This document shows, piece by piece, positions 8,198 through 61,306 of a DNA stretch of 64,000 nt (positions are counted from its first letter, which is position 1; each line of letters starts with the position of its first letter). Position numbers and translations under genes: made by a program. The notes beneath the pieces are model-generated. The model had not been told where the DNA came from. It did no database searches and saw only the letters and a list, made by a program, of their open reading frames with translations. This DNA is from an uncultured Pseudomonadota bacterium (GTDB taxonomy: Bacteria; Pseudomonadota; Gammaproteobacteria; Burkholderiales; SG8-39), in assembly GCA_903829815.1 (NCBI GenBank), contig CAIKRR010000076.1:1-64000 (forward strand). Direction: 5' to 3'.

Positions 8198-9631
8198 TCA
8201 GTCGGTCACCATACCGAAAACCGGCGCCTGCGACCCGGTCTGACGATAACGGTCGAAGACCGCGCACACGGCCCGAACGACCAGCCGCCCATCGGGTGTG
8301 AGCGTGATCCATTCGGGCGTCAACTCGAGCAGACCTGCCTTGGCCATCGTTTCCAGTTGCTGGCACTCATCGGCAAAGTGGCTGCGGAAATTGACGAGGT
8401 AGGCGATCTCGATCGACTCGATCGAGATCTCGCCGCGGCCCAGCAAGGCACGAATCACCGCGTGTCGCACCAGATCATCGCGGCTGAGTTCGATACCGCG
8501 CATCACCGGCAGCACACCCTGCTCGAGCCGATCGTGATAGGCATCGAGCGCATGCAGGTTCTGCGCATAACTGTGACCAATACGACTGATCGCCCCCAGC
8601 CCCAAGCCGATGCGGTCATGCTCGGTCTGGCTCGAGTAGCCCCACGAGTTGCGCTGCAAACGGCCTCGGCGCATGGCAATGGCCAGATCCTCATCGGCGC
8701 GAACGAACAGATCGAGCCCGACATCGACATAGCCGGCCGTCCCGAGGCGTGACCGTGCCTCGAGCATCATGTCGACGCACGCCGCGCGGTCGGGCAAGAC
8801 ATCGCGTCGGAAAGCCCGCTGGGTAGGGAAGCGCAGCGGATCATGGCGGTAGCGCAGCAGACTGATGCGATCGGGGTTCAGATCGACCAGACGCTGCAGA
8901 CTGAAACTGAACGCCTCGCGGGTCTGGGTGGGCAGGCCATACCAGAGTTCGACCCCGACAGACCGGAATCCAGCCGCCTTGGCGGTCTGCATCACCGCCG
9001 CGGTACGGTCCTCGAATTGAATGCGATTGACGGCCACCTGGACCTTGGGATGAAAATCCTGCAGACCGAGGTTCATGCGATTGAAGCCCAGTGATGCCAT
9101 CGCACGGATTTCCTCGTCGGCAAACCGGCTCGGATCGATCTCGATGAGGTAATCGCCCTGGGCAGCAAAATTGAAACACTCGCGCACGCGACGCACCAGT
9201 TGCTCGAGCTGCTCGGCGGTGAGGAAGTTGGGCGTGCCTCCGCCCAGTTGCATCTGACTCACGGTCGGCGAGCGCCCAAGCAGCGGCTCCAGAATATCGA
9301 GCTCGCGCCCCATCGCAGTCAGGTAGGGCTCGACCGCTGCGCGGGACCGACCGACCACGGTCTGGCGCGTGCACTGCACGCACTGCGACTCGCAAAACGG
9401 CACCCGAACATCCAGCGACAGCGGTTGCAGCGCGGCCAGCGGCGCGCGCGTAGCGATGGCACGCGCAAGTGCAGCACCATCGAAAAACTCGGCAAATCGC
9501 TCAACGCCAGGATAAGCGGTGTACTCGGTACCGCCCACGCCATACTGGCGCAGCAACTCGCGTGCAAGGTCGACTTCACGCGAGTCGCTCTGCTCCACCA
9601 GCGACAACTGGTTGACGGCAAGTGCATTCAT
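8198..9631 (-). CDS. HemN-like radical SAM protein (oxygen-independent coproporphyrinogen III oxidase family, divergent)
   Basis: This aligns by eye with HemN over its whole length: VPFCESQCVQC (CxxxCxxC cluster), QLGGGTPNFL, FNRMNLGLQDF, VELWYGLPTQT, LNPDRISLLRYRH, a RRGRLQRNSWGY segment and a HemN C-terminal domain. The start is placed at the ATG at 9631, giving 477 residues. The longer tracked start adds a non-homologous tail. Several positions conserved in E. coli HemN differ: LYVHIPFC is LDVRVPFC here, the fourth cysteine two residues after the triad is Arg, and GMDHFA is GLDLFV. It may therefore be a paralogue with altered activity rather than the classic enzyme converting coproporphyrinogen to protoporphyrinogen. 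An FNR box at promoter distance upstream indicates anaerobic induction. Confidence 0.8.
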   Translation of the reverse strand: MNALAVNQLSLVEQSDSREVDLARELLRQYGVGGTEYTAYPGVERFAEFFDGAALARAIATRAPLAALQPLSLDVRVPFCESQCVQCTRQTVVGRSRAAVEPYLTAMGRELDILEPLLGRSPTVSQMQLGGGTPNFLTAEQLEQLVRRVRECFNFAAQGDYLIEIDPSRFADEEIRAMASLGFNRMNLGLQDFHPKVQVAVNRIQFEDRTAAVMQTAKAAGFRSVGVELWYGLPTQTREAFSFSLQRLVDLNPDRISLLRYRHDPLRFPTQRAFRRDVLPDRAACVDMMLEARSRLGTAGYVDVGLDLFVRADEDLAIAMRRGRLQRNSWGYSSQTEHDRIGLGLGAISRIGHSYAQNLHALDAYHDRLEQGVLPVMRGIELSRDDLVRHAVIRALLGRGEISIESIEIAYLVNFRSHFADECQQLETMAKAGLLELTPEWITLTPDGRLVVRAVCAVFDRYRQTGSQAPVFGMVTD

Positions 9632-51423: not shown

Positions 51424-52494
<1,071 letters not shown>

Positions 52495-52506: not shown

Positions 52507-53061
52507 ATGGAACATCGGCAGGAACCTGGGGCAATCGAGCAATTCGAGACGCATTACGGGCGGGTACTCGATGGGCTCGCCCTTCTCGGGTGCCTGCTGC
52601 TCTTCCTCATGATGATCACCATCTGCCTGGACGTGCTGCTGCGCAATGTCGAACTGATCCCCGGCCTTCACGGGGTACCGGCCAGTAATGATCTGACCGA
52701 GTACGCGCTCTACCTCATGACCCTGTGTGTGGCCCCCTGGCTGCTGCGCCAGGGCAAACACATCCGGGTCGACATCGTCCTGCGTGCCATACCGAAGACG
52801 CTCGCCTGGCGCTGCGAACTGGTGGCCGATGTACTGGCGCTCCTGTGCTGCCTCATCATGGCCTGGTTCAGCTGGCAGGCCACGGCCGCCAGCATTCAGG
52901 CCGGAGCGCTCACCATCAAGACCCTTGTGACCCCGGAATGGTGGTCGCTGATTCCCCTGCCGACGGCTTTCGTGCTGCTGGCGATCGAAGTCGTTTTCCG
53001 GATTCACCGTCTTGCCACAGGCCCGCGCGGACCGCGTGATGATGCCGTGTCGAGTGCCTAG
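52507..53061 (+). CDS. TRAP transporter small permease, DctQ-type
   Basis: This 184-residue membrane subunit has about four helices. The first is LALLGCLLLFLMMITICLDVLLRN, followed by LTEYALYLMTLCVAPWLLRQGKHIRVDIV, a recognisable DctQ motif. It sits between the DctP and DctM genes with short gaps (12 and 17 bp), so the complex is encoded in one operon. Its partner DctM forms the transport core. Confidence 0.92.
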   Translation: MEHRQEPGAIEQFETHYGRVLDGLALLGCLLLFLMMITICLDVLLRNVELIPGLHGVPASNDLTEYALYLMTLCVAPWLLRQGKHIRVDIVLRAIPKTLAWRCELVADVLALLCCLIMAWFSWQATAASIQAGALTIKTLVTPEWWSLIPLPTAFVLLAIEVVFRIHRLATGPRGPRDDAVSSA

Positions 53062-53078: not shown

Positions 53079-54395
53079 ATGATGAGCTGGCAGGCTGCGG
53101 CCTGGTTGTTGCTGGGTGGATCGACCGTGCTGCTCTTTCTCGGGCTCCCGGTGGCATTCTCTTTTCTGGTCATCAATATCGTCGGGGGCTGGCTCTTCCT
53201 GGGCGGCGAAGCGGGGCTTGCGCAGCTCGCGCGCAACTGCGTGGTATCGGTCACCAGCTTCTCGCTCACGCCGATTCCGCTCTTCATCCTGATGGGCGAA
53301 GTGCTTTTCCACACAGGTCTTGCGGTGAAGGTGATTGACGGCATCGAGCGACTCATCCGTCAGGTGCCCGGGCGGCTCGCGGTTGTGGCGGTGGTTGCCG
53401 GCACCGTCTTCTCGGCGATCAGCGGCTCCACCATCGCCACCACGGCCATGCTGGGCAGCCTGATGGTGCCGGTGATGCTTGCCCGCGGCTATCACCCGAC
53501 GATGGCCACCGGCCCGATCATGGCCATCGGTGCCGTTGACATGCTCATCCCCCCCTCCGCCCTCACGGTGCTGCTGGGCAGTCTGTCGGGCATCTCGATC
53601 TCCAAGCTCCTCATCGGTGGCATCGTGCCCGGACTCATCCTCTCGGTGCTCTTCATCGGCTACATCATCACGCGGGTAAAGATGTCGCCCGAACTGGCAC
53701 CCAACAGCGCGTTCGAGGAGTACGAAGGCTGGGAGAAACTGCGCCCCCTGTTCCAGTACGTGCTGCCCCTCGTGTCGATCTTCGTGATCGTGGTGGGCGC
53801 GATGATCGCCGGCTGGGCAACGCCGACCGAATCGGCTGCGATCGGGGCCTTTGCAACGGTGCTGCTCGCCATGCTCTACCGGGCGCTCTCCCTCGAGAAA
53901 CTCATCGCCTCACTCAAGGGTACGGTCTCGGTGTCGGGGATGATCCTCTTCATCATCGTGGGCGCCACCACCTTCGCGCAGATCCTGTCGTTCTCCGGGG
54001 CCAGCAGCGGACTGGTGCAACTCATCACCGGCCAGGGGCTGTCGGCGCAGGTGATCATCATGGGGATGATGTTGCTCCTCATCTTCCTTGGCATCTTCGT
54101 CGATCAGGTGAGCATGATGCTGATCACGCTGCCGATCTTCATGCCCATCGTGCAATCGCTCGGCGTCGATCCCATCTGGTTCGGCGTGATGTTCCTCATC
54201 TGCATGCAACTGGGGCTACTGCTGCCCCCGCACGGCATGCTGCTGATGACCATGAAGGGGGTTGCGCCGCCTCAGGTGACGATGCTGCACATCTTCAAGG
54301 CTGTGACGCCCTATGTGGTGATCAGCATTATCATGCTTGCAGCCGTGTTCCTGTGGCCACCCGTGGCCACCTGGCTACCCGGCTGGCTCGGCTGA
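53079..54395 (+). CDS. TRAP transporter large permease, DctM-type
   Basis: This is a 438-residue inner-membrane transport subunit with about twelve helices. DctM signatures are FSLTPIPLFILMGEVLFHTG, VVAGTVFSAISGSTIATTAM and GPIMAIGAVDMLIPPSALTVL, with IFVDQVSMMLITLPIFMPIV in the second half. It completes the DctPQM set. Tandem hairpins occupy the gap to the downstream iorA-like gene. Confidence 0.95.
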   Translation: MMSWQAAAWLLLGGSTVLLFLGLPVAFSFLVINIVGGWLFLGGEAGLAQLARNCVVSVTSFSLTPIPLFILMGEVLFHTGLAVKVIDGIERLIRQVPGRLAVVAVVAGTVFSAISGSTIATTAMLGSLMVPVMLARGYHPTMATGPIMAIGAVDMLIPPSALTVLLGSLSGISISKLLIGGIVPGLILSVLFIGYIITRVKMSPELAPNSAFEEYEGWEKLRPLFQYVLPLVSIFVIVVGAMIAGWATPTESAAIGAFATVLLAMLYRALSLEKLIASLKGTVSVSGMILFIIVGATTFAQILSFSGASSGLVQLITGQGLSAQVIIMGMMLLLIFLGIFVDQVSMMLITLPIFMPIVQSLGVDPIWFGVMFLICMQLGLLLPPHGMLLMTMKGVAPPQVTMLHIFKAVTPYVVISIIMLAAVFLWPPVATWLPGWLG

Positions 54396-54473: not shown

Positions 54474-56618
54474 ATGGAACGCTCGTTCAAGGAAGAGATC
54501 AAATCGCTGCGCCTGGGTGAGGGCGACGAATTCGTCGGCGAGGGCATCCTGGCCGTCACCAAGGCCCTGCTGCAATCGGGCGTCTCCTATGTAGGCGGTT
54601 ATCAAGGTGCGCCCATCTCGCACCTCATCGACGTGCTGACCGAGGCCGAGGACCTGCTCGGCGAGCTTGGCGTGCATCTGGAGACCAATGCCTCTGAGGC
54701 AGCGGCGGCGGCCATGCTCGGCGCCTCGATCAACTACCCGATCCGGGGGGCGGTGGCCTGGAAGTCAACGGTCGGTACCAATGTCGCCTCCGACGCCCTG
54801 GCCAATCTGGCCTCGGCTGGCGTACTCGGCGGCGCACTGATCGTGATTGGTGAAGACTACGGCGAGGGCGCCTCGATCATGCAGGAGCGCAGCCATGCGT
54901 TTGCGATGAAGTCGCAGATCTGGCTGCTCGACCCGCGCCCCGACCTGCCCACCATCGTGCGCATGGTCGAACACGGCTTCGAACTGTCCGAAGCATCGAA
55001 CAGTCCGGTGATGCTCGAATTGCGCATCCGTGCCTGCCATGTGCACGGCAGCTTTCGCACCCGCGACAATCGTGCGCCGGTGGTTTCGACCACCGATCCA
55101 ATGCAATCGCCCGAGTTCGACTATGGCCGCATCGTGCTGCCACCTTCGACCTACACCCAGGAAAAGCACAAGATCGATGTGCGCTGGCCAGCGGCCGTAG
55201 CCTACGTGCGCGAGCACCAGCTGAACGAAGTGTTCAAAGGTGACATCGAGGGCCTGGGCATCATCTGCCAGGGCGGCATGTACAACGCCACCGTGCGTGC
55301 GCTGCACCAGCTCGGGCTTGCCGATGCCTTTGGCGCTTCGCGTATACCGATCCTGTGCCTGAACGTCACCTACCCACTCGTACCCGAGGAAGTCACCGGC
55401 TTTTGCAGCGGGCGCGCCCACGTGCTCGTGGTTGAAGAAGGACAACCGGCCTTCATCGAAGACGCGGTACTGGCAGCCCTGCGCCGCGGTGATGTCAACG
55501 GTGCCGTGGTGCACGGCAAGGATGTGCTGCCGCTGGCCGGGGAATACACCGGTGAGACCGTCGTGGCGGGTATGCGACGCTTTCTCGAGATGACCCTCGA
55601 CGACCTGCCGGCGGGCAGTATCCGGGTCGAGACAGCAGCGGTCACTGCACGCCACGATGCGCTCGGGGCCGCCAAGCGCCAGGCCATGACGCTCCTCGGC
55701 GGTCCGGTGGCGCCACGCCCCCCGGGCTTTTGCGTCGGCTGCCCGGAGCGTCCGGTGTTCTCGGCGATGAAACTCATCGAGCGCGACGGCGGGCCCTTCC
55801 ACATCTCGGCCGACATCGGCTGCCATCTGTTCTCGACCCTGCCGCCCTTCAACATCGGCAACACGGTGCTGGGCTATGGCCTGGGCCTCGCCTCGAACGC
55901 AGCGGTCGATCCGCTCTTCAACCGTCGCACCGTCACGGTGATGGGAGACGGCGGCTTCTGGCACAACGGACTCACCTCGGGCATCACCAACGCGGTGTTC
56001 AATCGCGATGACGGCATCCTGGTGATCATGAACAACGGCTACACCTCGGCCACCGGCACCCAGCACATCCCGTCCTCGCCCCATCAGGCCGACACCAAGA
56101 TGACCGGCATGTCGATCCGCAAGGCGCTCGAGGGCATCGGCGTGAAGTGGGTGAAGACCGTCACCACCTACAAGGTAAGCCAGATGAAGGACACCTTGGC
56201 CGAGGCGATGAACTCGAGCTATGCCGGTCTCAAGGTGATCATTGCCGAGAGCGAATGCCAGCTGGAGAAACAACGTCGCATCAAGCCGGTGATCGCCAAT
56301 CTGCTCAAATCGGGCAAGCGTGTCATCCGAACACGGTTTGGCGTCGACGAAGATGTCTGTTCGGGTGATCACTCATGCATCCGGCTATCCGGATGCCCGT
56401 CACTGACCGTTCGCGACTCGAGCGACCCGTTGAAGGTTGACCCGGTTGCGCATGTGAACAACGGCTGCGTCGGCTGCAGCCTGTGTGGTGAAGTGGCGCA
56501 TGCTGCGGTGCTATGCCCTTCGTTCTTCCGTGCCGAAGTCGTCCAGAACCCGGGCTGGTGGGACTCCTTCCGCTGGCTGATCAGTCGCGCCTTCATCAGC
56601 GTCCTGCAACGGGCCTGA
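54474..56618 (+). CDS. Indolepyruvate:ferredoxin oxidoreductase alpha-like subunit, copy 1
   Basis: This 714-residue TPP enzyme subunit resembles IorA, which oxidatively decarboxylates aryl-2-oxo acids to acyl-CoA with ferredoxin as acceptor. The N-terminal pyrimidine-binding part has GEGILAVTKALLQSGVSYVGGYQGAP. The diphosphate motif GDGGFWHNG is near residue 490 and continues to VIMNNGYTSATGTQ. CVGCPERPVF precedes it. The C-terminal iron-sulfur region has a degenerate first set (CSGDHSCIRLSGC) and CVGCSLCGEVAHAAVLCP. It is the first of three related genes. The true substrate is unknown. Confidence 0.88.
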   Translation: MERSFKEEIKSLRLGEGDEFVGEGILAVTKALLQSGVSYVGGYQGAPISHLIDVLTEAEDLLGELGVHLETNASEAAAAAMLGASINYPIRGAVAWKSTVGTNVASDALANLASAGVLGGALIVIGEDYGEGASIMQERSHAFAMKSQIWLLDPRPDLPTIVRMVEHGFELSEASNSPVMLELRIRACHVHGSFRTRDNRAPVVSTTDPMQSPEFDYGRIVLPPSTYTQEKHKIDVRWPAAVAYVREHQLNEVFKGDIEGLGIICQGGMYNATVRALHQLGLADAFGASRIPILCLNVTYPLVPEEVTGFCSGRAHVLVVEEGQPAFIEDAVLAALRRGDVNGAVVHGKDVLPLAGEYTGETVVAGMRRFLEMTLDDLPAGSIRVETAAVTARHDALGAAKRQAMTLLGGPVAPRPPGFCVGCPERPVFSAMKLIERDGGPFHISADIGCHLFSTLPPFNIGNTVLGYGLGLASNAAVDPLFNRRTVTVMGDGGFWHNGLTSGITNAVFNRDDGILVIMNNGYTSATGTQHIPSSPHQADTKMTGMSIRKALEGIGVKWVKTVTTYKVSQMKDTLAEAMNSSYAGLKVIIAESECQLEKQRRIKPVIANLLKSGKRVIRTRFGVDEDVCSGDHSCIRLSGCPSLTVRDSSDPLKVDPVAHVNNGCVGCSLCGEVAHAAVLCPSFFRAEVVQNPGWWDSFRWLISRAFISVLQRA

Positions 56619-56647
56619 GCGCCTGTCACACGCACACTGGCAAACAA

Positions 56648-56676
56648 CCCTTCGCGCATGTCCGATCGCGAAAGGG
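56648..56676. other. Hairpin just upstream of the iorB-like gene
   Basis: CCCTTCGCG pairs with CGCGAAAGGG (one bulged A) across a 10-nt loop. It ends a few bases before the GGAGAG ribosome-binding site of the iorB-like gene, so it could affect translation or protect the RNA end. Confidence 0.5.
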
Positions 56677-56693
56677 CTACCGGAGAGTCTTGT

Positions 56694-58265
56694 ATGAGCA
56701 CACTGCCCGAACGTCCGCTCACCATCCTGATTGCCGCCCTGGGTGGTGAAGGCGGCGGGGTGATGGCCGACTGGCTGGTGGCGGCGGCCACCGCGCAGCA
56801 CTTCCCGGTGCAGAGCACCTCGATTCCGGGCGTTGCCCAGCGCACGGGTGCCACCACCTACTATCTGGAGATCTACCCGGTACCCACCAGCGAACTCGGC
56901 GAGCGCCGTCCGGTGCTCGCGCTCACGCCCTCGCCCGGTTATGTCGACCTGATGGTGGCCTCTGAACTCATCGAAGCCGGGCGCGCGATGCAGAACGGCT
57001 TCGTGAGTCCTGAGCGCACCACGCTCGTGGCCTCGACCCATCGCATCTACACCACGCTCGAGAAGATGCACATGGGCGATGGCCGTATCGACCCCGAGCG
57101 CATCCTGGGTGCCGCCAGCACGCTCGCGCGCAGGGCGCACCTGTTTGACATGGCGGCGCTGGCCCAGCAGGCGGGCACCGTGATCAGCGCCGTGCTCTTC
57201 GGCGCAATGGCCGGTGCCGGCGTGCTGCCCATTCCGCGTGCCGCCTGTGAAGCAGTGATCCGGGCCTCGGGCAAGGGGGTCGAGGCGAGCCTGCGGGGCT
57301 TCGACCTGGGCTGGAAGCACGCCACTGGCGAGGCGACCGAGCGGCCAGCGGCACAGATCAAACGATGGGTGGCAAACCCCTCGGAGCGCGTGCACGCAAC
57401 GCTGCCGGTTGAAGTACAGCCTTTTGCCGATGAAGGCGCTACCCGCACCGCCGACTTCCAGGATGCCGCCTACGCAAGCCTCTACCTGGACCGGGTCGAA
57501 GCAGTGGCGAAGATCGATCGTGAACAAGGTGGCGGCGCTGCCGGCTACGCCCTCACCCGCGAGACGGCCCGGTTTCTAGCGCTCTGGATGTGCTTCGAGG
57601 ACGTGATCCGGGTGGCAGACCTCAAGACTCGCCGCAGCCGGGTCGATCGGGTGCGCGAAGAGGCGATGGCCAAGGCGCATGAACCGGTGCATATCGTCGA
57701 ATACCTCAAGCCCGGGGTCGATGAGATCGCCTCGATCATGCCGGCCGCCCTCGGGCGAGCCTTCGAGGGCTGGGCAAAACGTCGCGGGCTGCGATTGCAG
57801 AAGGGACTCTACATCCGCTCGACCAGCCTCACCGGCTTTCTGATGCTGCGCACGCTGGCAGCCCTTCGCCCGCTGCGCCGTGCGAGCCTGCGCTTCGGCA
57901 TCGAGCAGCAGACCATCGATCGCTGGCTTGCCGCCATTCGCAGTGCAGCCGCAACCGATCTTGGCCTCGCGCTGGAGATTGCCTTGCTCGGTCGGTTGAT
58001 CAAGGGCTATGGCGAGACCTATCAGCGCGGGCGCGAAAACTTCCTGCGTATCATGGCCACGCTGGTCGACGCGGGCGATGGTCGCGAACCGGCCGCACGA
58101 CGAGCCGCCGTCCGCGCCGCACGCGAAGCGGCGCTCGCTGACCCGGAAGGACGCAAGCTCGAAGGCAGCCTTGCCGCTGCCGGCATCACGCCGCTGCCCC
58201 CGAGGGCCAAGCCCATCCAGTTCCTGCGCAAGCCCCCGGCACGAACGAGCGGCCGCGCGCACTGA
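56694..58265 (+). CDS. Indolepyruvate:ferredoxin oxidoreductase beta-like subunit, long form
   Basis: This is a 523-residue protein. The ATG at 56694 has GGAGAG at good spacing, and the tracked start is 12 codons early. Residues 1-200 form the gamma-type domain of 2-oxoacid oxidoreductases: ILIAALGGEGGGVMADWLV, STSIPGVAQRTGATTYYLEI and VASTHRIYTT. The remaining 320 residues match a C-terminal extension of this subfamily (DUF6537-like) with EYLKPGVDEIASIMPAALG. IorB of archaea lacks this extension. No iron-sulfur cysteines are seen. It lies between two alpha-like genes and could pair with either. Confidence 0.87.
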   Translation: MSTLPERPLTILIAALGGEGGGVMADWLVAAATAQHFPVQSTSIPGVAQRTGATTYYLEIYPVPTSELGERRPVLALTPSPGYVDLMVASELIEAGRAMQNGFVSPERTTLVASTHRIYTTLEKMHMGDGRIDPERILGAASTLARRAHLFDMAALAQQAGTVISAVLFGAMAGAGVLPIPRAACEAVIRASGKGVEASLRGFDLGWKHATGEATERPAAQIKRWVANPSERVHATLPVEVQPFADEGATRTADFQDAAYASLYLDRVEAVAKIDREQGGGAAGYALTRETARFLALWMCFEDVIRVADLKTRRSRVDRVREEAMAKAHEPVHIVEYLKPGVDEIASIMPAALGRAFEGWAKRRGLRLQKGLYIRSTSLTGFLMLRTLAALRPLRRASLRFGIEQQTIDRWLAAIRSAAATDLGLALEIALLGRLIKGYGETYQRGRENFLRIMATLVDAGDGREPAARRAAVRAAREAALADPEGRKLEGSLAAAGITPLPPRAKPIQFLRKPPARTSGRAH

Positions 58266-58269
58266 AGCA

Positions 58270-58284
58270 GGTCTGCGGCAGACC
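58270..58284 (+). terminator. Short hairpin between iorB-like and the second iorA-like gene
   Basis: GGTCTG-CGG-CAGACC is followed by CGCTTTAA. The stem is strong for its size but the T run is weak, so partial termination or an RNA-processing site is possible. Confidence 0.35.
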
Positions 58285-58322
58285 CGCTTTAACGACACGG
58301 AGACCGACGAGGAGACTGACTG

Positions 58323-60470
58323 ATGGAGCGACTCTTCACCGAAGAGATCGAGGCGCTGCAACTGGGTGAGGGCGAAACCTTCCACGGCGAGGGGATTCTC
58401 GCGGTGACCAAGGGGCTCCTGCAGTCGGGCGTGGCCTATGTCGGTGGTTACCAGGGCGCACCGGTCTCGCACCTGCTCGATGTGATGGTGCAGGCGCGCG
58501 ATTATCTGGACACGCTCGGCGTGCATGTCGAGGCCTGCACCAACGAAGCGTCCGCCGCCGCCATGCTCGGGGCATCGATCAACTATCCGATGCGCGGTGC
58601 GGTGACCTGGAAGTCGATCGTCGGTACCAATGTGGCCTCCGACGCGCTGTCGAACCTTGCCTCGGCTGGCGTCACCGGTGGCGCCCTCATCGTGGTGGGC
58701 GAAGATTATGGCGAGGGCGCGAGCGTCATACAGGAACGCACCCACGCCTTTGCCCTCAAGTCGACGATGTGTCTGGTCGACCCGCGTCCCTCACTGCCGC
58801 ATATCGTCGATATGGTCGAGGCGTCGTTCGAACTGTCCGAGGCCTGCAACGCGCCCGTCATCATGGAACTGCGGATTCGCGCCTGCCATGTGCAGGGGAG
58901 CTTTGCGACCCGCGCCAACCGCGCCCCAGCCATCTCGGCGCGCGCACCGATGGCCGAACCCGCCGCCTTCCTCTATGACCGGCTCGCGCACCCACCAGCC
59001 ACCTTCCGCCAGGAAAAACTGAAGTCCGATGTGCGCATGCCGGCTGCGCGCCGCCACATCATGGCGCGCGGCCTGAACGAACAGATCGACGGTGCCCACA
59101 GCGAACTTGGGCTCATCGTACAGGGTGGCTTGCACCCCAACCTCGTGCGGGCAATGCAGCAACTGGGCCTGGCCGATGGCTTCGGAGAGAGCCAGTTGCC
59201 GATGCTCATCCTCAACGTGGTCTATCCGCTCGTGCCCGAGCAGATAAGCGCGTTCTGTGCAAGCCGCCGCGCCGTCCTGGTCATCGAGGAAGGGCAACCG
59301 GAATTCATCGAGCAGGAACTGGCGCTCCTGCTCAGACGCGCCGGTGTCGACACCGCGCTGCACGGCAAGGACATGCTGCCACTTGCAGGCGAGTACACCG
59401 CCGAAGTGATCCTGCGCGGCCTTCATCGCTTTGTGGCAACCCACGGCCCGGACATCGACATCGCAGCAGGCACCCGGACCCTCGAGCATATCGACGCACT
59501 GCGCACCCAGGCTGCCAGCGCGCTGGGTACCGGCATGCCTCCACGTCCACCCACCTTCTGCGTCGGCTGCCCCGAACGACCGGTGTTCGCCGCCATCAAG
59601 CTCGTCGAGCGCGAGGTTGGAACGCCTCACATTGCCGGTGACATCGGCTGCCATGCACTCGCCACGTTCGAACCGTTTTCAGTCGGCAACTCGATTCTCG
59701 GCTACGGTATGGGACTGGCCAGTGCGGCCGCAGTGGGGCCTGCGATGAATCGTCGCACCCTCTCGATCATGGGCGATGGGGGCTTCTGGCACAACGGCTT
59801 CCTGTCTGGGGTGTCATCCGCCCTGCACAACGGTGACGATTCGATTCTGGTGGTGATGAAGAACGGCTACACCTCGGCCACCGGCACACAGGATCTCCTG
59901 TCGACCCCGGCCGAGAGCGCCCGTGCAGCTGCGCGCGCCAACAGTGCAGTGCATGCCGATCAGCGTATCGAACAGACGCTCAAAGGGGCTGGCGTACGCT
60001 GGCTTCGCACCGTCAACAACTACCGGGTCGGTGACATGGTGGGTGTCCTGCGCGAGGCCTTCACCACGGCCGAGGGCGGCCTCAAGGTCATCATCGCCGA
60101 GGGCGAATGCCAGCTCGAGCGTCAGCGTCGGATACGGCCGATTCTGGCAGGCCTGCTGCGCGCGGGGAAACGCGTCGTTCGCACCCGGTTCGGCGTGGAC
60201 GCCGACACCTGCTCGGGCGATCATTCCTGCATACGACTCTCGGGCTGTCCTTCGCTCACGTTGCGTGATTCGGGTGACCCGCTCAAGGTCGACCCGGTGG
60301 TCCAGGTAAACCACGCCTGTGTCGGCTGTGGTCTCTGTGGCGAAGTGGCTCACGCGGCCGTCCTCTGCCCCTCGTTCTACCGCGCCGAGATCGTGCAGAA
60401 TCCTGGATTGATCGACCGCCTGCTCTGGGGCGTACGCAATCGCGTGACCGGCTGGCTGGCACCGCAGTGA
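58323..60470 (+). CDS. Indolepyruvate:ferredoxin oxidoreductase alpha-like subunit, copy 2
   Basis: This 715-residue paralogue of the gene at 54474 is alike along its whole length. For example, copy 1 has LAVTKALLQSGVSYVGGYQG where this has LAVTKGLLQSGVAYVGGYQG. The TPP motif GDGGFWHNG (near residue 483) and CVGCGLCGEVAHAAVLCP are intact, as is the degenerate first cluster motif. The main differences lie after the TPP motif: copy 1 has IPSSPHQADTKMTGMSIR, whereas this has LLSTPAESARAAARANSAVH, and the N-terminal helix differs. Both copies look functional. This may reflect substrate specialisation or a mixed-subunit enzyme. Confidence 0.88.
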   Translation: MERLFTEEIEALQLGEGETFHGEGILAVTKGLLQSGVAYVGGYQGAPVSHLLDVMVQARDYLDTLGVHVEACTNEASAAAMLGASINYPMRGAVTWKSIVGTNVASDALSNLASAGVTGGALIVVGEDYGEGASVIQERTHAFALKSTMCLVDPRPSLPHIVDMVEASFELSEACNAPVIMELRIRACHVQGSFATRANRAPAISARAPMAEPAAFLYDRLAHPPATFRQEKLKSDVRMPAARRHIMARGLNEQIDGAHSELGLIVQGGLHPNLVRAMQQLGLADGFGESQLPMLILNVVYPLVPEQISAFCASRRAVLVIEEGQPEFIEQELALLLRRAGVDTALHGKDMLPLAGEYTAEVILRGLHRFVATHGPDIDIAAGTRTLEHIDALRTQAASALGTGMPPRPPTFCVGCPERPVFAAIKLVEREVGTPHIAGDIGCHALATFEPFSVGNSILGYGMGLASAAAVGPAMNRRTLSIMGDGGFWHNGFLSGVSSALHNGDDSILVVMKNGYTSATGTQDLLSTPAESARAAARANSAVHADQRIEQTLKGAGVRWLRTVNNYRVGDMVGVLREAFTTAEGGLKVIIAEGECQLERQRRIRPILAGLLRAGKRVVRTRFGVDADTCSGDHSCIRLSGCPSLTLRDSGDPLKVDPVVQVNHACVGCGLCGEVAHAAVLCPSFYRAEIVQNPGLIDRLLWGVRNRVTGWLAPQ

Positions 60471-60511: not shown

Positions 60512-61306
60512 ATGATCCAGACCCTCTCGACGCTCGCCGTCACCGAACCCGCACCCGGCCTCTTGCTGGTGACGCTCAACCGGCCTGAAGTGGCCAATGC
60601 CATCAATACCCAGTGCGGACGCGACCTGAAGACCGTTTTCCAGGGACTGGAAAACGACTTTCGACCTTATCGCTGCGTGGTCATCACCGGCGCGGGGGAA
60701 CGCGCATTCTGCGCAGGCGGCGACCTGAAGGAGCGGAACACGCTCGACAACGAACAGTGGGTGCTGCAGCACGAACTGTTCGAAGCCGCCTTTCGCTACA
60801 TCATCAACTGCCCGCTCCCGGTCATCGCGGCCGTGAATGGCGCGGCTTACGGCGGCGGGCTCGAACTCGTGCTTGCCTGCGACTTTGCCTACGCGGCAGG
60901 CACCGCACGCTTTGCGCTCACCGAAACGTCGTTGGGCATCATGCCTGGCTGTGGTGGAACGCAAGCCCTGCCCCGCATCGTCGGCGAGCGTCGGGCCAAG
61001 GAGCTGATCCTGTCGGCGCGTGCGTTCAGCGCCCAGGAGGCACTCGACTGGGGCATCGTCAATGCGCTGAGCGAACCTGGCAAGGTGCTTGCCGATACGC
61101 TCGCCATTGCACAACGCGTCGCCGACAACGCACCGCTGTCGGTGCGCCAGGCCAAACAGTCGATTCACTATGGCATGCAGATGGACCTGCGCTCGGGGAT
61201 GATGTTCGAGATCGAGGCCTACCAGCGGATGGTCGGTAGCGAAGACCGCCTCGAAGGGGTGAAGGCCTTCAACGAGCGCAGAAAGCCGCAGTGGAAGGGC
61301 CGCTGA
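60512..61306 (+). CDS. Enoyl-CoA hydratase/isomerase family protein
   Basis: This 264-residue crotonase-fold protein starts at the ATG at 60512. The tracked GTG is 15 codons earlier. The oxyanion-hole segments are ERAFCAGGDLKER and VNGAAYGGGLELVLACDFAYA, and the position of the catalytic glutamate is supported by FALTETSLGIMPGCGGTQ. This fits hydration or isomerisation of an acyl-CoA. It follows the iorA-like gene closely, so it may process the acyl-CoA made by that enzyme. Confidence 0.93.
   Translation: MIQTLSTLAVTEPAPGLLLVTLNRPEVANAINTQCGRDLKTVFQGLENDFRPYRCVVITGAGERAFCAGGDLKERNTLDNEQWVLQHELFEAAFRYIINCPLPVIAAVNGAAYGGGLELVLACDFAYAAGTARFALTETSLGIMPGCGGTQALPRIVGERRAKELILSARAFSAQEALDWGIVNALSEPGKVLADTLAIAQRVADNAPLSVRQAKQSIHYGMQMDLRSGMMFEIEAYQRMVGSEDRLEGVKAFNERRKPQWKGR

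Follow-up and report, generated by a model that had tools for sequence, protein, structure and literature searches.

The window, a 64,000-nucleotide stretch of DNA from an uncultured Burkholderiales bacterium, contains two genes for IorA-like alpha subunits on either side of one gene for an IorB-like beta subunit. The explanation that we consider best, and hold with moderate confidence, is that these genes encode two long IorA/IorB-type 2-oxo-acid:ferredoxin oxidoreductases that rely on the same beta, a gamma-type subunit. The ThDP active site is complete in both alphas, which also carry an Fe-S domain at the C-terminus, and each alpha would pair separately with the common beta. The two pairs would act on different 2-oxo acids, probably aromatic ones (arylglyoxylate or arylpyruvate), and with CoA yield acyl-CoA, CO2, and reduced ferredoxin. 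Uptake of the acid would fall to a TRAP transporter, and a downstream step to an enoyl-CoA hydratase family protein. Gene content, two old alpha clades, purifying selection, a single beta per genome, and the exchange of alphas around one beta lineage were observed; the physical sharing of beta, the difference in substrates, their aromatic nature, and the reaction itself (CoA-dependent oxidative decarboxylation with ferredoxin) are inferred.

The initial annotation had described a 714-aa alpha-like, a 523-aa beta-like, and a 715-aa alpha-like product encoded in one direction, and this description is borne out by three intact open reading frames, all on the + strand:

54474..56618, + strand: alpha1, ThDP-dependent catalytic subunit (714 aa; TPP_enzyme_C; alpha1 clade; ThDP-enzyme fold matches)
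55944..55970, + strand: TPP/Mg motif GDGGFWHNG of alpha1, residues 491-499 (from the sequence; invariant in 36 homologues)
56358..56519, + strand: C-terminal Fe-S region of alpha1, C629-P682 (C-x2-DH-x-C-x5-CP, then C-x2-C-x2-C-x9-CP)
56694..58265, + strand: beta, OFOR gamma-type domain and helical DUF6537 (523 aa; NF006179, 605 bits; PF01558; PF20169; PorC/OorC fold matches)
58323..60470, + strand: alpha2, second ThDP-dependent catalytic subunit (715 aa; TPP_enzyme_C; alpha2 clade)
59772..59798, + strand: TPP/Mg motif GDGGFWHNG of alpha2 (from the sequence and alignment)
60210..60371, + strand: C-terminal Fe-S region of alpha2, with the same modified motif as alpha1 (from the alignment)

The ATG at 56694, preceded by GGAG, gives the 523-aa beta; an alternative start at 56658 gives 535 aa. 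Over their whole length, alpha1 and alpha2 share 61% identity (889 bits). The host genome (4.2 Mb, 98% complete) contains no further close alpha or beta, and its next alpha relative is a distant fused-type gene with 26% identity.

Both alphas align over the full length of the TIGR03336 (IOR_alpha) profile, with 257.3 bits for alpha1 and 251.1 bits for alpha2, far below the cut-off of 650.9 for membership of this equivalog, and PF02775 is over its cut-off. Several features place the proteins in the 2-oxo-acid:ferredoxin oxidoreductase superfamily: PF02775, GDGGFWHNG, an invariant E75, matches to the ThDP-enzyme fold, and a beta of gamma-type fold. The predicted structure of alpha1 (pLDDT 79.5) matches two-domain ThDP enzymes (E 1e-17); because its whole-chain TM-score is low (0.2) despite such E-values, the model may be read as support for the ThDP-enzyme fold class only. 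A whole-chain sequence search of the PDB returned no match.

The C-terminal Fe-S region departs from the TIGR03336 type, since the alphas do not have two CxxCxxC motifs. Of 132 long alphas, 131 have both Fe-S motifs. The first motif includes an Asp (C-x2-D-H-x-C) in 131 of the 132, and its His is found in all but two of 122 sequences checked; canonical IorA proteins of relatives (L177 and L178) contain CNACQSC and CIGCTLC, with a Cys where the long alphas have Asp. Given this replacement of Cys by Asp, an Asp- or His-ligated cluster or a 3Fe cluster is possible in the long alphas.

Beta matches NF006179/PRK08312 ('indolepyruvate oxidoreductase subunit beta family') over residues 17-508 with 605.2 bits (cut-off 348). 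It is of the long type, containing both PF01558 (39.4 bits, cut-off 27.4) and PF20169 (DUF6537; 144.2 bits, cut-off 27). In the beta model (pLDDT 85), the N-terminal part matches the gamma subunits PorC and OorC (TMt 0.74-0.81). DUF6537, which makes up the C-terminal half, is confidently modeled as helical (pLDDT mostly above 85) and has no counterpart in the PDB, matches of the model being confined to the gamma domain. The combination of a long alpha with a long beta (DUF6537) is an established architecture, and the list of known forms in the initial annotation, one alpha plus one beta or a single fused polypeptide, was therefore incomplete: separate long alpha and long beta genes are recognized in NF006179 and as iadA/iadB (PMC9613470).

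For the phylogeny, 132 alphas and 91 betas were extracted from 79 loci in GTDB and 40 regions belonging to the window's family. In the bootstrapped tree of 88 alphas, a split with 100/99 support separates alpha1 of the window from its alpha2, and a quick tree gave the same result. The alpha2 clade is mostly burkholderialean (37 rows, 100/100); the alpha1 half of the tree also includes alphas of Alpha- and Gammaproteobacteria. This position on two sides of the split indicates that the duplication predates the family, which excludes a very recent event, and the near-identical sequences that would accompany one were not found. Comparison of the window with L103 and L104 gave dN/dS values of 0.03-0.13 for alpha1, beta, and alpha2, all of which are under strong purifying selection. 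The existence of separate clades across many genera, together with purifying selection on both copies, argues against recent duplication and against decay, and supports the retained specialization that the initial annotation had considered. A recent duplication or an assembly artefact was ruled out by the identity of the two alphas, the deep split, and the occurrence of the layout in independent genomes.

The alphas had also been said to differ most after the TPP motif. Identity is indeed low in residues 500-591 (42-44%), but it is as low or lower in residues 350-399 (36%) and 201-249 (44%) and at the C-terminus (692-714, 25%). We compared 34 alpha1 and 28 alpha2 sequences of the family at the 303 positions that are at least 90% conserved within both; 12 of these positions differ between the alphas. 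Eight of the 12 lie in residues 60-85 or 440-535, the segments with the invariant Glu75 and with GDGG at 491, and T71-N72-A73 of alpha1 is replaced by A-C-T in alpha2 shortly before Glu75. This enrichment gave a Fisher p of 0.0005 for segments that were picked after seeing the list of positions. The fixed differences lie mainly near the TPP-binding segments and, since these were picked post hoc, are only suggestive of a divergence in substrate. At 11 of the 12 positions, the majority residue of a Comamonadaceae-type alpha2 group is that of the family alpha2 (at least 83%).

These data bear on the unlikely alternative that both alphas share the beta and catalyze the same reaction, providing redundancy or dosage, and differ in kinetics, oxygen tolerance, or expression only. 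Their 61% identity and identical motifs would fit such an arrangement, as would the TRAP transporter that can lie beside single-alpha loci of both types. The split, however, is very old, and clade-specific residues are fixed beside the ThDP segments across genera. Moreover, the neighbors differ: Pad genes adjoin beta-alpha2 loci, whereas TRAP and gentisate dioxygenase genes are found at loci containing alpha1.

Several layouts of the three genes occur within the family. The alpha1-beta-alpha2 order is found in the window and in L103-L106, L108, L110, L111, and L114, and alpha1-alpha2-beta in, among others, L116, L117, L119, L120, L122, L128, L131-L134, L137, L139, and L140. Alpha1-beta alone is present in L107, L112, L113, L115, L121, L129, L130, L135, L136, L142, and L156, and beta-alpha2 alone, in some cases close to contig ends, in L123-L127, L141, and L158-L160. 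Among the 46 family genomes that are at least 90% complete, 19 encode both alphas, 14 alpha1 only, three alpha2 only, and eight neither, with two unclear; the sorting into classes was done manually on the bit scores of match lists, the absences come from draft MAGs, and three of the 14 alpha1-only genomes have truncated contigs. There is one close beta per family genome, with the exception of G014, which has two beta-alpha2 loci with genes split over contigs. That genome carries a pad-like phenylglyoxylate dehydrogenase cluster twice (L124 and L125), each time followed by beta-alpha2. In L138 (G045:C12), alpha1, alpha2, and beta are each in two pieces with apparent frameshifts, which are probably sequencing errors in that assembly.

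Outside the family, two genomes, both of another family, contain two full pairs in which each alpha has its own beta, i.e., G189 (L143 and L144, about 20 kb apart on the same contig) and G099 (L145 and L146). Among the 300 genomes sampled from the order, no further genome outside the family combined an alpha1-like with an alpha2-like gene. The alpha1 of G189 and G099 nests within the alpha1 clade of the family, and either order of events, with two pairs giving rise to sharing or sharing giving rise to two pairs, is compatible with the tree.

The main evidence for sharing comes from the beta tree. Betas of alpha1-beta-alpha2, alpha1-beta, and beta-alpha2 loci are interleaved in one clade (22 rows, 98/96), indicating that a single beta lineage works with alpha1, with alpha2, or with the two of them. 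Betas of alpha1-alpha2-beta and alpha1-beta loci make up another clade (19 rows, 100/100). The alpha2-linked betas of G189 and G099 group separately, together with L078 (three rows, 100/100); L078 and L145 are identical and apparently represent one genome. The window's genome thus contains two distinct catalytic sets and one gamma gene of this kind, as in POR and VOR, and the occurrence of the same beta lineage with either alpha alone suggests that one beta may physically bind both.

The initial annotation had left a choice between a heterogeneous complex and two enzymes, and had named frequent absence of either copy as evidence against retained specialization. Such absence is what the single-alpha genomes display, each alpha often being missing where the other is kept beside the beta. 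This pattern speaks against a heterogeneous complex being obligatory and favors two separable enzymes that share the beta. We therefore regard as quite unlikely a mixed alpha1-alpha2-beta2 enzyme, in which perhaps only one alpha would be catalytic and the other would have a structural or regulatory role; every catalytic motif is also kept in both alphas. In its favor, both alphas and one beta lie in one apparent operon, the alphas are retained together in 19 of the 46 near-complete genomes, and mixed OFOR assemblies have been reported in Thermococcus (PMC12016516). Mixed tetramers are possible in operons that hold both alphas. That alpha2 does not use this beta is highly improbable. It would then function without any beta, pair with the distant fused-type relative, or be on its way to loss, as might be read from its remnant in L109. 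Alpha2 of the window is, however, under purifying selection, beta-alpha2 loci lacking alpha1 carry the same beta lineage directly upstream, and the genome contains no further relative except the distant fused-type gene. The L109 remnant (G036, 8517-9113) is an in-frame product of about 206 aa without residues ~78-591, the sister locus L108 being intact, and represents either real loss or a MAG assembly error.

Returning to the two proposed enzymes with a common beta, the genes around them provide clues to transport and substrate:

51451..52494, + strand: TRAP transporter substrate-binding protein, DctP type (NF037995, 81.5 bits, cut-off 50; cluster c4, 28 loci; conserved upstream partner)
52507..53061, + strand: TRAP small permease-like protein in the DctQ position (cluster c5, between DctP and DctM in 25 loci; no NCBIfam match of its own at 1e-20)
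53079..54395, + strand: TRAP transporter large permease, DctM (TIGR00786, 283.7 bits, cut-off 268; cluster c1, 48 loci)
60512..61306, + strand: enoyl-CoA hydratase/isomerase family protein (top NCBIfam match 272.7 bits, crotonase family; adjacency)

TRAP genes lie upstream of the alphas in many relatives. The short intergenic gaps suggest that the TRAP genes, alpha1-beta-alpha2, and the enoyl-CoA hydratase family gene form a single transcript, of which the latter is probably the final gene; a GTG at 60467, upstream of its start, overlaps alpha2. Within 51-64 kb, the neighbors are TRAP, enoyl-CoA hydratase, LivK-like, and P450 genes. Iad-type neighbors (IadCDE Rieske dioxygenase, MarR) are absent from this region, which rules out that the cluster belongs to an iad locus.

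Relatives point to aromatic 2-oxo acids through their Pad, gentisate, Hpa, and alpha-hydroxy acid oxidase neighbors. The beta-alpha2 loci L123-L126 adjoin PadG, PadH, and PadI of phenylglyoxylate dehydrogenase, all over cut-off. Gentisate 1,2-dioxygenase (over cut-off) often follows alpha1-alpha2-beta and alpha1-beta loci, some of which also have a salicylyl-CoA-hydroxylase-like gene (below cut-off) nearby, and Pseudolabrys loci contain the 4-hydroxyphenylacetate genes HpaD (over cut-off) and HpaB-like. On a Variovorax boronicumulans plasmid (NZ_CP138497; L163, 11836-22412), an alpha-beta pair is followed by an alpha-hydroxy acid oxidase, a branched-chain-type ABC transporter, and an enolase-superfamily gene, which looks like a mandelate-type pathway that would feed arylglyoxylate to the alpha-beta enzyme. 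Beside the window operon itself, no diagnostic aromatic gene was found, and searches for PadI in the genome gave weak ferredoxin-like matches only. Its gentisate dioxygenase gene is located about 34 kb downstream of the cluster, near rpoA; the rpoA region is close to the cluster in relatives too, so this linkage may be partly positional. As a doubtful but broader proposal, the long alpha/long beta family might consist of arylglyoxylate (2-oxo-2-arylacetate):ferredoxin oxidoreductases that form aroyl-CoA in aerobes, rather than indolepyruvate enzymes, with the single beta of the window's family acting as a common platform for interchangeable catalytic alphas, each exchange bringing a different aromatic substrate.

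The window's proteins can be compared with four known systems. In the fused IOR of ~1200 aa (PRK13029/PRK13030), the two halves match alpha and beta, including the C-terminal part of beta, but the genes are separate in the window and identity is only 26-30%. Archaeal IorAB (TIGR03336/TIGR03334) has the same alpha domain order (PYR, PP, Fe-S) and a gamma-type beta; the window's alphas differ in scoring far under the equivalog cut-off and in having Asp-His for Cys in the first Fe-S motif, and its beta is more than twice as long. Auxin-degradation iad loci carry separate iadA/iadB (iotA/iorB) alpha and beta genes (PMC9613470), and bll3411/bll3410 of Bradyrhizobium are IadA/IadB-type genes (PMC3788728). 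By annotation, these likewise are separate indolepyruvate ferredoxin oxidoreductase subunits (COG4231, COG1014) with a link to aromatic degradation; in contrast, iad has one alpha per beta and MarR and Rieske dioxygenase neighbors, where the window has TRAP and enoyl-CoA hydratase genes. No experimental substrate of IadA/IadB was found in the literature searched on iad auxin loci, and the 'indolepyruvate' label that this large family bears, auxin-degradation genes included, would by our analysis be unsafe as a statement of substrate.

The fourth system is POR and VOR of Thermococcales, in which the gamma subunit PorG/VorG is common to both enzymes (PMC4058850, PMC12016516). As there, two catalytic sets of apparently different 2-oxo-acid specificity are encoded with a single gamma-type (PF01558-fold) subunit, which in the window would be shared. 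Natural variants (alpha1-beta, beta-alpha2, alpha1-beta-alpha2, alpha1-alpha2-beta, and two separate pairs) offer a direct way to test partner exchange and substrate specificity. The catalytic part consists of alpha, beta, and delta chains in the Thermococcales and of one IorA-type chain with an Fe-S domain in the window, and the window's beta, unlike PorG/VorG, has an added DUF6537 helical domain. Sharing of OFOR subunits is documented in these hyperthermophilic archaea; the host here is a proteobacterium, and the same economy would now extend to a betaproteobacterial family.
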